A stretch of 64,000 nucleotides of DNA. Source: Mesorhizobium loti. GTDB lineage: Bacteria; Pseudomonadota; Alphaproteobacteria; Rhizobiales; Rhizobiaceae. The DNA is taken from positions 3,201,501 to 3,265,500 of the forward strand of contig NZ_CP033334.1 in assembly GCF_013170705.1 (NCBI RefSeq), read 5' to 3'. Both the position numbers and the translations under genes were made by a program. The notes under the pieces were generated by a model, which ran no database searches, had not been told where the DNA came from, and was given only the letters and a program-made list of their open reading frames with translations. This document shows positions 46,403-50,680 of this stretch, piece by piece; the first letter of the stretch is position 1; every line of letters begins with the position of its first letter.

Positions 46403-46495
46403 CGCAAACGTCCAACACTTCGTCATCCTCGGGTCTGCGCCGCGTCGCTTCGCTCCTTGCTCCGCCCGTGGATGACGAAGTGTTGGGGGCGTTGC
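46403..46495. repeat. Palindromic intergenic repeat, family B copy 1
   Basis: CCAACACTTCGTCATCC (46412-46428) is mirrored exactly by GGATGACGAAGTGTTGG (46470-46486), and pairing continues imperfectly outward to 46403 and 46495. The middle holds CTCGGGTCTGCGCCGCGTCGCTTCGCTCCTTGC in pieces. The same plan (TTCGTCATCC... GGATGACGAA around GGGTCT and GCTCCT) is found at 57084-57151. Confidence 0.8.
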
Positions 46496-46544
46496 AAATT
46501 TCCAAACCTTGACAGCAATGCCTTTCCTGCTCCAGCTTGGCGCC

Positions 46545-46637
46545 ATGTTCACCCTCGCGCCCACCAACACCAACCGACGCCGCCGCCCTGCACGGAGCGG
46601 CAAGCTGAGTGCGCGACGACGAAGGCCGGCAGGATAG
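46545..46637 (+). CDS. Candidate arginine-rich leader peptide, 30 aa
   Basis: ATG at 46545 opens a 30-codon frame ending at TAG 46637: MFTLAPTNTNRRRRPARS..., with nine arginines including two runs of four (46575-46586 and 46617-46628). No Shine-Dalgarno precedes it, but a perfect TTGACA stands at 46509-46514, so a transcript would begin at or next to the ATG. The leader would then be leaderless, as known for the trpL attenuator of Sinorhizobium meliloti. A terminator hairpin follows 21 bases after the stop, then an acetyltransferase gene. The -10 region is not recognisable. The role as attenuator is inference. Confidence 0.5.
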   Translation: MFTLAPTNTNRRRRPARSGKLSARRRRPAG

Positions 46638-46658
46638 ATCCGGTTCGTTCGTTTCCAG

Positions 46659-46689
46659 CCCCGCCCGCGACAACGCCGGCGGGGTTTTT
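46659..46689 (+). terminator. Intrinsic terminator, possible attenuator before GNAT gene
   Basis: CCCCGCC (46659-46665) and GGCGGGG (46678-46684) pair around CGCGACAACGCC and are followed at once by TTTTT (46685-46689), a classical rho-independent terminator. It stands between the arginine-rich mini-frame and the acetyltransferase start 18 bases on. GCCGGC at 46625-46630 can pair with GCCGGC at 46675-46680, which overlaps the 3' arm, so an alternative antiterminator is possible. Confidence 0.75.
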
Positions 46690-46707
46690 CATGCCTGGAG
46701 CCTTGTG

Positions 46708-47172
46708 ATGACAAACAATTCCATCCGGTTTCGGCCGGCCGAAACCGCCGACGCCGCCGCGATCCGGGACATCGTGCGCGCAGCCTATGCGAAATGGGTG
46801 CCGGTGATCGGCCGCGAGCCGCTGCCGATGCGCGCCGACTACGACAAGGCCGTGGCCGAGCATCCGTTCGATCTTGCAATCGCGGACGGCCGCGTCGTGG
46901 GCATGATCGAAACCGTGCTGGCCGACGACCACCTGTGGATCGAGAATGTCTGCGTGGCGCCGCAGGCGCAGGGCAGGGGCATCGGGCGGCTGTTGCTGGA
47001 GCGGGCTGAACAGAAGGCGCTCGAAGCCGGTCGCCCGGAGCTGCGCCTGCTGACCAACGGTGCTTTCGCCGCCAATGTGTCGCTGTACAAATGGCACGGC
47101 TATGTGATCGACCGGGAGGAGCCGTTCATGGGCGGCATGACGGTCTATATGAGCAAGAAACTGGCGCGATAG
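46708..47172 (+). CDS. GNAT-family N-acetyltransferase
   Basis: 154 residues. IRFRPAETADAAAIRDIVRAAYAKW at the start, the acetyl-CoA loop VAPQAQGRGIGRLLLERAE (Q-x-x-G-x-G/A at about 88-94), and the closing strand GGMTVYMSKKL. It transfers acetyl from acetyl-CoA to an amine. GGAG lies 7 bases before the ATG. The substrate is unknown; if the leader is a real arginine attenuator, an arginine-related amine is possible. It is 22 bases before an ACT-domain gene, so they form an operon. Confidence 0.87.
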   Translation: MTNNSIRFRPAETADAAAIRDIVRAAYAKWVPVIGREPLPMRADYDKAVAEHPFDLAIADGRVVGMIETVLADDHLWIENVCVAPQAQGRGIGRLLLERAEQKALEAGRPELRLLTNGAFAANVSLYKWHGYVIDREEPFMGGMTVYMSKKLAR

Positions 47173-47194
47173 CGGGCAAGCGGAGGAAACGACG

Positions 47195-47581
47195 GTGGCT
47201 GCCAGGGTCAAATTGAAGCAACTTCCCGGGCTGTACGCGATTTCACGGCTCGGGGCGGGCGACGGGATTCCCGGCTGGGCGGATGGGCCGGGCTTCGTCA
47301 GCATCACCAGGACCGATGACGAGCTTTCGGTCACGTGCCTGCAGGATCGCGTTCCCGGCACGGTCAAGCACGATCGCGACTGGGTCGCCTTCAAATTGCA
47401 GGGGCCCTTTGCTTTCGACGAAACCGGCATCGTGTTGTCGGTCATCCAGCCGCTGTCTGAGAACGGACTGGGCATCTTCCTGGTATCCACCTTCGACGGC
47501 GATCATCTGCTGGTGAAAGCGGCGGATCAGGAAGCGGCGAGGCGGCTGTTGGGCGAGGCGGGACATACGCTTGCAATTTGA
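47195..47581 (+). CDS. CASTOR-like ACT-domain protein
   Basis: 128 residues from GTG at 47195 with GGAGGAAACGAC upstream. The pattern is that of COG3603-like double ACT proteins: LKQLPGLYAISRLGAGDGIPGWA, FVSITRTDDELSVTC, then KLQGPFAFDETGIVLSVIQPL and ENGLGIFLVSTFDGDHLLV (cores TDDELSVTC, LSENGLGIFLVST). ACT domains bind amino acids; the eukaryotic CASTOR relatives sense arginine. Following the GNAT gene directly, it may sense the same metabolite. Ligand identity is not shown by sequence. Confidence 0.8.
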   Translation: MAARVKLKQLPGLYAISRLGAGDGIPGWADGPGFVSITRTDDELSVTCLQDRVPGTVKHDRDWVAFKLQGPFAFDETGIVLSVIQPLSENGLGIFLVSTFDGDHLLVKAADQEAARRLLGEAGHTLAI

Positions 47582-49577: not shown

Positions 49578-49988
49578 ATGCAGCTTCAATCGATCGTCAC
49601 GACGCCGGCCACGGTCGGCAGCGCCATCTCGGATGAGGAGGCGGGGGCGCTTGCGCGCACCACGGTCAATTTGTTCAAGGCGTGGGGCCTCACCGACCTC
49701 GAGGCCTGCATCCTGCTCGGCGGCATGTCGGCGCGCACCTGGGCGCGGTGGAAGGAGGGCGGCATCGGGCGGATCGACCGCGATTTGCGCACCCGCATGG
49801 CGCATCTGATGGGCATCCACAAGGGCCTGCGCTATCTCTTCACCGAGCCGGCGCGCGGCTATGCCTGGATCCGCAAGCCCAATGCCACTTTCGGCGGCCA
49901 GTCGGCGCTCGACCTGATGCTGCGCGGCGAAATCTCCGATCTTGCCGCCATGCGCGAATGGCTCGATGCGGAGCGTGGTGCATGGTGA
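49578..49988 (+). CDS. Xre/MbcA/ParS-type antitoxin (DUF2384)
   Basis: 136 residues. A helix-turn-helix-like N-terminal half (LTDLEACILLGGMSARTWARWKEG) and a C-terminal toxin-binding part (RMAHLMGIHKGLRYLFTEPARGYAWIRKPNATFGGQSALDLML; cores RYLFTEPARGYAWI and FGGQSALDLML) match DUF2384 antitoxins. It overlaps the RES toxin gene by 7 bases. These proteins block the NAD-consuming toxin and repress the operon. The AT-rich promoter just before it holds palindromic half sites (GCCAATTGGCAA near 49529) suited to self-repression. Confidence 0.88.
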   Translation: MQLQSIVTTPATVGSAISDEEAGALARTTVNLFKAWGLTDLEACILLGGMSARTWARWKEGGIGRIDRDLRTRMAHLMGIHKGLRYLFTEPARGYAWIRKPNATFGGQSALDLMLRGEISDLAAMREWLDAERGAW

Positions 49989-50680
49989 GTGGACTCGCGG
50001 TCCGGCGCCGCGTCCACTGGCCCCAGACCTATCGCATCATCCGTTCCATCCATCCGCCGATCGACCTGTTCGAGGACATCGCCGATCCGCGCGACTGGGA
50101 GGCGCTGGCCTCGGTCGAGGAGAAGACCAATCCGCGGATCCGGCTTGAGATCGGCGACCTCGGCAAGGTCGCGGCGGCAAGGCGGGTGTCCGGCCCCGGC
50201 GCCAGCTTCGTCATGGCGCCCTTCGTGCATTGTTCGACGCTGCGGCCCGGGCGCTTCTCGGATGGCAGCTACGGCCTCTATTATGCCGGCGACAGCGAGG
50301 ATGTGGCGCTGGCCGAAACCATCCACCATCACCAGAATTTCATGCGCGCCACCAAGGAAGATCCGGGCTGGACGGCTGACTTTCGCGTGCTGATCGGCAG
50401 CGTCGACCGCGATCTCGATGACGTCAACGCCGTGCCCGGCGTGCTCGACCCGGACGATTACACCGCCTCGCAGGCGGAAGGGCAGGCGCTGCGGGCGCAA
50501 GGCAGCGACGGGCTGGTGTGGAACAGCGTGCGCATGCCTGGGGGGCAATGCATCGGCATCTTCTGGCCTGATGTCATCCCTGTTCCGGTGCAGGGCCGGC
50601 ATTACAGCTACCACTGGGACGGTGCGCGCGTCGACTTCGTGCGCCAGCACGATACCGGCAAGGTGCTGGCGGTCGTGTGA
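49982..50680 (+). CDS. RES-domain toxin (NAD-degrading)
   Basis: 232 residues. The RES family is marked by the residues Arg, Glu and Ser: YRIIRSIHPPID, FSDGSYGLYYAGDSEDVALAETIHHHQNFM (cores SYGLYYAGDS and ALAETIHHHQ), and LVWNSVRMPGGQCIGIF. RES toxins cleave NAD+ and halt growth when the antitoxin is lost. It begins at ATG 49982, overlapping the antitoxin's stop, so translation is coupled. It appears complete and intact, in contrast with the ParE of the other module. Confidence 0.88.
   Translation: MVSGLAVRRRVHWPQTYRIIRSIHPPIDLFEDIADPRDWEALASVEEKTNPRIRLEIGDLGKVAAARRVSGPGASFVMAPFVHCSTLRPGRFSDGSYGLYYAGDSEDVALAETIHHHQNFMRATKEDPGWTADFRVLIGSVDRDLDDVNAVPGVLDPDDYTASQAEGQALRAQGSDGLVWNSVRMPGGQCIGIFWPDVIPVPVQGRHYSYHWDGARVDFVRQHDTGKVLAVV

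Follow-up and report, generated by a model that had tools for sequence, protein, structure and literature searches.

A candidate arginine attenuator before a GNAT–ACT operon of Mesorhizobium loti, and arginine leaders before argC in relatives

What controls the expression of the gene pair encoding a GNAT-family N-acetyltransferase and a CASTOR-related ACT protein in Mesorhizobium loti? The pair lies in a stretch of 64,000 nucleotides (nt) of contig NZ_CP033334.1 (positions 3,201,501 to 3,265,500), analysed as a whole and hereafter called the window, on whose plus strand all the coordinates below are counted; it is preceded by a short open reading frame (ORF) rich in arginine codons and by a terminator. 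We have good confidence that this element is a ribosome-mediated transcription attenuator reading the arginine supply. That it works as an attenuator through translation of the leader is very likely, and arginine is likely to be the signal, judging mainly by the Arg codons of the leader and by Arg leaders before argC in relatives. The computed support consists of the in-frame conservation of Arg, the covariation of the terminator, the change of fold under a ribosome placed on the Arg codons and these argC leaders.

The element begins with a −35-like box, TTGACA (46509–46514), and a weak −10-like region, CCAGCTT (46532–46538), which is kept across the genus and is not recognised by a sigma-70 scanner. 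The 30 codons of the leader ORF (46545–46637; MFTLAPTNTNRRRRPARSGKLSARRRRPAG) encode nine Arg, among them two runs of four, and the mRNA is probably leaderless, as judged solely by the promoter spacing. The proposed sensing codons form the first run, CGA CGC CGC CGC (46575–46586). In the predicted folds, Arg codons pair with segment 2 in a 1:2 hairpin (46582–46601), expected without a ribosome stall, and segment 2 (CGGAGCGGCAAGCTG; 46593–46607) also serves as the 5′ side of a putative antiterminator, the 3′ side of which, segment 3 (46656–46667), overlaps the 5′ arm of the terminator. A predicted stop-codon hairpin (46611–46652), with the second Arg run (46614–46625) in its 5′ arm, lies inside the antiterminator. 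The intrinsic terminator (46659–46689), supported by pairing and covariation, is made of a stem (46659–46684) and a TTTTT run (46685–46689). It is followed by TGGAG (46696–46700), the likely ribosome-binding site of the GNAT gene, by the GNAT gene itself (46708–47172; 154 amino acids) and by the gene for the ACT_7 protein (47195–47581; 128 amino acids). GCCGGC copies are present at 46625–46630 and 46675–46680. The TTGACA box, the ATG, the nine-Arg ORF, the terminator, both genes and the GCCGGC copies had all been recognised in the initial annotation and were confirmed base for base; its proposal of an arginine attenuator before the GNAT–ACT pair is supported by the comparative tests and by the Arg leaders before argC described below.

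How well is the leader conserved in the genus? The GNAT is present in 92 of 146 Mesorhizobium genomes (E ≤ 1e-30) at 94 places, comprising 86 orthologous loci (at least 73% identity) and eight paralogs (57–63%), all of which were examined. TTGAC placed 34–38 nt before a start codon and followed by a short ORF occurs at 83/86 orthologous loci, and 80 of 85 leaders have their ATG 35 or 36 nt from TTGAC (search range 31–38). An in-frame Arg core is found at 82/86 orthologous loci under a rule that lets His, Cys or Gly replace Arg at core position two or three, while a strict Arg-Arg-Arg within the first 20 residues is found at 74/85 loci, plus G393. Among 84 distinct leaders (81 genus orthologs, two from another genus and one paralog), the first, second and third core codons encode Arg in 84, 81 and 81 cases, respectively, and the core begins at codon 9, 10 or 11 in all except L124, where it begins at codon 30. 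The pattern used in a frame test misplaced the Arg block in 6 of the 84 rows, and the conservation counts were therefore taken from the translated ORFs. Changes in the core Arg codons fall 22 times on the third base versus six times on the first or second, a count not corrected for sequence kinship. The first Arg codon (46575–46577 in the window) is CGA in 83/84 leaders, less strictly so in distant leaders, and CGA represents 177 of the 1457 Arg codons (12%) in the long ORFs of the window. CGA is read by an Arg tRNA through inosine, and codon-specific sensing by way of this tRNA at the first CGA is possible.

The residue preceding the Arg run may be Lys, Gln, Asn, Thr or another, most of the remaining residues vary as well, and the spacing between Arg core and terminator does not keep the frame. 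The two Arg runs pointed out in the initial annotation are both present in the window, but the second is not required and is absent in frame in one Mesorhizobium clade. Similarly, the ACT partner that it placed in the operon is found in the window and adjoins the GNAT gene, downstream, at 58/85 genus loci, not at all of them. One GNAT paralog (62–63% identity) has an Arg leader of its own (L131:263-441); the seven other paralogs of the genus show none.

Could such a leader be an ordinary terminator behind a chance ORF, between neighbouring genes? High-GC DNA readily yields runs of CGN codons, and the leader folded at full length is no better than its shuffles (z 0.14), both of which fit that explanation. 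A detector combining TTGAC, its spacing, an ATG or GTG ORF of 8–45 codons in which any one residue occurs three times in a row, and a terminator was applied to both strands of 1.264 Mb. This sample comprised 60 stretches of 20 kb (about 18% of the genome) and the window, 10.5 kb being counted twice. Before the terminator test, 16 runs were obtained behind TTGAC, of which seven were Arg, again as expected if CGN runs arise by chance; the full detector returned a single match, the window leader. This single terminator-bearing match, together with the conserved Arg core, the nearly constant CGA at its first position and the leaders present in other families, makes a chance ORF very improbable. 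A covariance model of the leader also identifies a single copy in this genome, with the runner-up at an E of 0.12. This bears on another explanation, in which the leader RNA released by termination, or the leader peptide, has a trans function comparable to that of rnTrpL/peTrpL and attenuation is secondary. The closest leaderless precedent does have such a second role, according to passages of its description (PMC10117765); with an element that is single-copy here, and with trans targets not having been sought, we judge this explanation less likely and give it an equally slim chance.

What folds does the leader RNA adopt? Two alignments were used, one of 72 sequences (A1), in which the TGGAG motif is nearly invariant, and one of 37 sequences (A2). 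On A1, 95% of the cells of the terminator are paired, against at most 64% in slid controls, and 67 cells show double changes versus 19.8 after shuffling (0 of 500 shuffles); the covariation on A2 is similar. For the competing structure, the initial annotation had put forward a pairing between the two GCCGGC copies. In folds predicted with a stalled ribosome, the first of them instead closes the stop-codon hairpin, and better support is found for an antiterminator in which 46593–46607 would pair with 46656–46667, running into the 5′ arm of the terminator around the stop-codon hairpin. The pairs of this proposed antiterminator are formed in 88% of cells on A1, and on A2, with one more pair, they show a modest covariation signal (8 cells versus 3.4; 6 of 500). 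The stop-codon hairpin is paired in 89% of cells on A1, with no more double changes than in slid controls, and the 1:2 hairpin in 83% of cells on A2, with no covariation beyond shuffles. An upstream helix suggested by RNAalifold (columns 57–63 with 112–118) was set aside for the segment 2:3 pairing; covariation proves neither.

Would a ribosome waiting on the Arg codons change the fold? Transcripts were cut so as to lack the 3′ arm of the terminator, which mimics the RNA that the polymerase would have made by then, and the stalled ribosome was represented by a mask reaching 12 bases beyond the point where the first Arg codon begins. In a set of 81 leaders (L086, with a run of N, L063, L124 and L113 having been dropped), the mean probability of segment 2 being paired with the terminator 5′ arm is 0.75 with the stalled ribosome, 0.23 without mask and 0.29 with a dinucleotide-shuffled middle. 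The stalled value exceeds the unmasked one in 81/81 leaders, and the native value is reached by 7.5% of shuffles. The antiterminator probability of the window leader rises from 0.06 when free to 0.83 when stalled. In a wider set, for which the folding values of L251 (terminator misplaced) and L185 (none given) were not used, stalled exceeds free in 84/85 leaders.

These data suggest the following mechanism. Transcription would begin with the A of the leader ATG or a base beside it, and the ribosome would load on the 5′ end. With ample Arg-tRNA, the ribosome would reach the stop codon and cover segment 2, so that the 3:4 hairpin forms and the polymerase halts before the GNAT gene. With scarce Arg-tRNA, it would wait on the first Arg run, leaving segment 2 free to pair with segment 3 around the stop-codon hairpin; once this antiterminator is formed, the terminator would come too late and the GNAT–ACT pair would be transcribed. 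Without any translation, the 1:2 hairpin would sequester segment 2, making termination the default.

Does the same type of leader precede genes of arginine metabolism? Of ten genomes searched for ArgC (TIGR01850, 290 bits versus a cut-off of 233.6), six gave a match. Arg leaders stand directly upstream of argC in L300 (MFSTVTTRRRRILIQR), L298 (MNTISTSTRRRSLILR) and L299 (MSPAFTRSRRSIFIQR), each with TTGACA 35–37 nt before the ATG and a hairpin with a T-run. These three loci belong to one genus; one of the genomes, G720, has a contamination rating of 6%. Leader model R2, searched over 30 kb, matches the leaders of L296 (E 6.6e-7), L300 (E 1.5e-5) and L298 (E 1.4e-4). In G665 (L292/L296), the Arg leader is followed by a PaiB-like gene and then by argC. 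At the argC locus of G512 (L297) no leader was seen, the sequence of L301 begins inside the argC gene and is thus uninformative on a leader, and the loose ORF scan used at argC loci also lists chance ORFs. In the genome of the window itself, ArgC had no match to the query at E ≤ 1e-20. Arginine is considered the likeliest signal because Arg leaders precede argC, and in relatives of Mesorhizobium the leaders would amount to a form of argC control that is direct and can be tested.

Outside the genus, Arg leaders occur before several types of genes. L036 and L037, both from one other genus of the family, have the leader and a GNAT 60–61% identical to that of the window. In Pleomorphomonas oryzae (L231), MNLAPTSLIRRRRRALVQ.. 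precedes a different GNAT (31% identity over 85 residues with the window GNAT), then an ACT gene, then a SnoaL-like gene. In a Beijerinckiaceae bin (L240), ..IRRRRRMTVQ.. precedes GNAT and ACT genes, the GNAT appearing by eye to be of the same second type as in L231; in Bosea sp. WAO (L251), the leader contains ..IARRRRCINLQ.. and ACT is the first gene. An alphaproteobacterial bin (L260) has MPLSQQNRRRRIKL.., with TTGAC at an unusual distance, before a gene for a GNAT 56% identical to that of the window and an ACT gene. Finally, MSPYAINRRRQ.. precedes a RidA-like gene and an ACT gene in G654 (L185), MINLATSIIARRRRIL.. a PaiB-like gene (FMN_bind_2) and argC in G665 (L292), and VFQNRPFVDRRRRRAT.. 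a SnoaL-like gene in G566 (L295), of the same Pfam family as the Pleomorphomonas one. The distant leaders carry runs of 3–5 Arg at codons 8–12, and their synonymous codons differ while Arg stays. The strict detector passes L231, L240, L251, L295, L298, L300, L036, L037 and L131; it does not pass L292/L296 (terminator rule), L185, L260 and L299. With the loose detector, the background at ACT loci is above zero: three upstream matches were taken as chance (L186, L243 and L258), and one downstream match (L261) and nine on the opposite strand were also obtained.

SnoaL-like genes thus recur with Arg leaders in two families (L295:1678-2067, L231:2919-3281). The PaiB-like FMN-binding gene between the Arg leader and argC (L292:1678-3122) is a possible pointer to polyamine metabolism, since PaiB usually goes together with PaiA, a GNAT that acts on polyamines.

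How widespread is the element beyond these loci? One search with a leader model found matches in 50/297 genomes at E ≤ 0.01; outside four genomes of the genus and G718, all were at or below 30.3 bits. Many of the low-scoring matches span only the terminator end, and in six weak ones that were looked at (L145, L147, L148, L153, L154 and L159) no Arg leader was noticed. A second model search gave 13/297 genomes, with five strong and eight weak matches; among five of the weak ones that were scanned, an Arg leader is present in L292 and L295, and two other weak ones, L147 and L148, were seen in part. A third search gave 13/277 genomes, with six strong and seven weak matches, and in the six weak ones that were scanned there was no Arg leader, the seventh, L147, being seen in part. 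No leader of this kind was found at the Agrobacterium, Rhizobium, Neorhizobium and Paracidovorax loci scanned. L039, a model match with an E of 1.1e-5, was rejected as a leader, its terminator lying behind a coding sequence. On balance, we lean, by a narrow margin, towards the Arg-codon attenuator being an unrecognised regulon signal in the order of Mesorhizobium, which we take to be Hyphomicrobiales, where it would join argC to GNAT, SnoaL-like, RidA- and PaiB-like and CASTOR-like genes, with one leader layout set before several unrelated genes.

The range of these downstream genes and the variation within the leaders bear on two further explanations. In the first, the Arg-rich nascent peptide would arrest the ribosome upon binding a small molecule such as arginine, ornithine or a polyamine, and would operate the same downstream RNA switch. 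Arg-codon control by a leader ORF is indeed known for orf34 of Salmonella speF, as reported in sections of PMC6386406, and the PaiB-like gene of L292 hints at polyamines. However, the residues around the Arg run are poorly conserved, and 3–5 Arg with varying neighbours fit codon counting better, so that we regard peptide arrest as improbable. In the second, which seems to us slightly less probable still, the leader would be a sensor of antibiotics or of general translation stress. Arg-X-Arg is an arrest motif for macrolides, and GNAT proteins are often resistance enzymes. The GNAT of the window, which gives weak NCBIfam matches, could modify a drug, and a leader ORF sensing ribosome inhibitors is known in toiL (parts of PMC12121999); but Arg leaders also stand before argC, a gene of arginine synthesis, and before SnoaL-like and RidA-like genes.

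Several observations weigh against an attenuator responding to arginine. Neither the sigma-70 promoter nor the terminator is called in the window by a simple scanner, which can be explained by the weak −10 region and by a hairpin mismatch and loop outside the limits of the scanner; since, in addition, the whole leader folds like its shuffles, the evidence from the single sequence is weak. On A1, the antiterminator shows 2 double-change cells versus 1.9, with slid controls reaching 6, and it lacks covariation support there because its pairs change so little. Exchanging segment 3 between species changes the folding energy from −18.8 (native) to −17.6 kcal/mol, against −16.6 for shuffled sequences, too small a difference. 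The single exception in the wider folding set is the distant leader L240 (0.36 free, 0.30 stalled), and the value of 0.00 obtained with the ribosome at the stop codon arises by construction, the mask covering segment 2. The stalled-ribosome folding envisaged in the initial annotation thus favours the antiterminator in cut transcripts, but with eight leaders folded at full length the terminator is present whether or not a ribosome is stalled; the switch must therefore be kinetic, timing being decisive as in other attenuators. The comparison of relatives, also envisaged there, revealed a conserved Arg core and a covarying terminator, but the Arg run is lost and the terminator kept, a pattern that the initial annotation had named as refuting its reading, at 4/86 loci, namely L063 (frameshift), L087, L089 and L114. 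Outside the genus, a leader is found at only 2/25 GNAT loci (L035–L059), and at 6/66 ACT loci outside the genus operon (five distinct places, L181 being the same as L231, and other pairs possibly coinciding too). Among the argC leaders, that of L299 reads Arg-Ser-Arg-Arg and has no R2 match in the 30 kb search. Finally, the GNAT scores far below every cut-off of the eight NCBIfam families that it touches, so that a role as an arginine enzyme is not supported.

In L087, L089 and L114 the leader is gone and a hairpin with a T-run remains before the GNAT gene, which makes these loci natural test cases for the loss of regulation.

What, then, might the operon do? The first protein belongs to Pfam family PF00583 (9.8e-15) and resembles solved GNAT structures only weakly. 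Its assignment as an N-acetylglutamate synthase was rejected and remains a guess, its score for the amino-acid N-acetyltransferase family PRK07922 (NF005921), of ArgA-like role, being 28.5 bits versus a cut-off of 180. The second protein contains ACT_7 (PF13840, with PF21631; 55.8 bits versus a cut-off of 27) and is a homolog of Atu0741 (PDB 1zhv, 1e-51). Its whole sequence matches human CASTOR1 and CASTOR2 at 4e-9 to 3e-8, single stretches reaching only about 0.0006–0.003, and in the alignment to the CASTOR ACT domain (PDB 5i2c, 9kpb) the motifs F-D-E-x-G-I-V and S-T-F-x-x-D-H are retained, including the equivalent of Asp304. According to passages of PMC5187391, Asp304 of CASTOR1 is needed for arginine binding, and CASTOR2 retains the motif yet showed no arginine binding; the motif is therefore a lead and no proof of the ligand. 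The ACT protein may have an amino acid, perhaps arginine, as its ligand, and the product of the operon is most likely part of an arginine-related function. Under the regulon reading, arginine shortage would be the main condition for producing this bacterial relative of CASTOR, the arginine sensor of mTORC1. A link between expression and arginine shortage would also give a first handle on ACT_7 proteins, by suggesting a ligand to test.

Two neighbouring features of the window deserve mention. Just upstream of the promoter, at 46412–46486, lies a dispersed palindromic repeat with 17-base inverted arms (CCAACACTTCGTCATCC / GGATGACGAAGTGTTGG), whose core has many near-identical copies in this genome and in other genomes of the genus. 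Further downstream, 49578–50680 holds an Xre/MbcA/ParS-type antitoxin gene followed by an ORF, likely a toxin-antitoxin pair near the operon; the second ORF may encode a RES-domain toxin, which it resembles.

How does this element compare with known systems? Amino-acid attenuators are textbook regulation. The fungal arginine attenuator peptide is also a leader peptide that reports the arginine level, by peptide arrest in eukaryotic translation control, whereas the case of the window would be one of transcription termination. Unlike CASTOR1 and CASTOR2, the ACT protein of the window has 128 amino acids and no GATOR2. At gathering scores, Rfam has no match to the leader, neither speF RNA nor any other leader model, the sole match in the window being a tRNA. 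Among the matches listed from the open-licence literature, judged on titles and abstract starts, there was no such bacterial arginine transcription attenuator, and none ending in an intrinsic terminator; a term search of the main text of a genome-wide attenuator survey (PMC2965389) gave no mention of arginine or rhizobia. As in toiL of the Escherichia coli topAI-yjhQ operon, a short leader ORF would let a stalled ribosome refold the RNA; unlike the window leader, toiL senses ribosome-targeting antibiotics through translation and Rho control, with no intrinsic terminator apparent in the sections of PMC12121999 considered. The leader of Salmonella speF is closer in its signal, since ribosome pausing at consecutive Arg codons of orf34 chooses the RNA fold; it differs from the window leader, which has an intrinsic terminator, by Rho-dependent termination, masking of the ribosome site and RNase G, as far as parts of PMC6386406 describe it. 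The closest likeness in layout is with rnTrpL/peTrpL of Sinorhizobium meliloti, in which, according to excerpts of PMC10117765, a leaderless leader ORF starts at the first AUG of the transcript and attenuation occurs before the first gene. There the signal is tryptophan and the gene trpE, whereas in the window arginine codons go with a GNAT–ACT operon, and the predicted antiterminator is built around a stop-codon hairpin.

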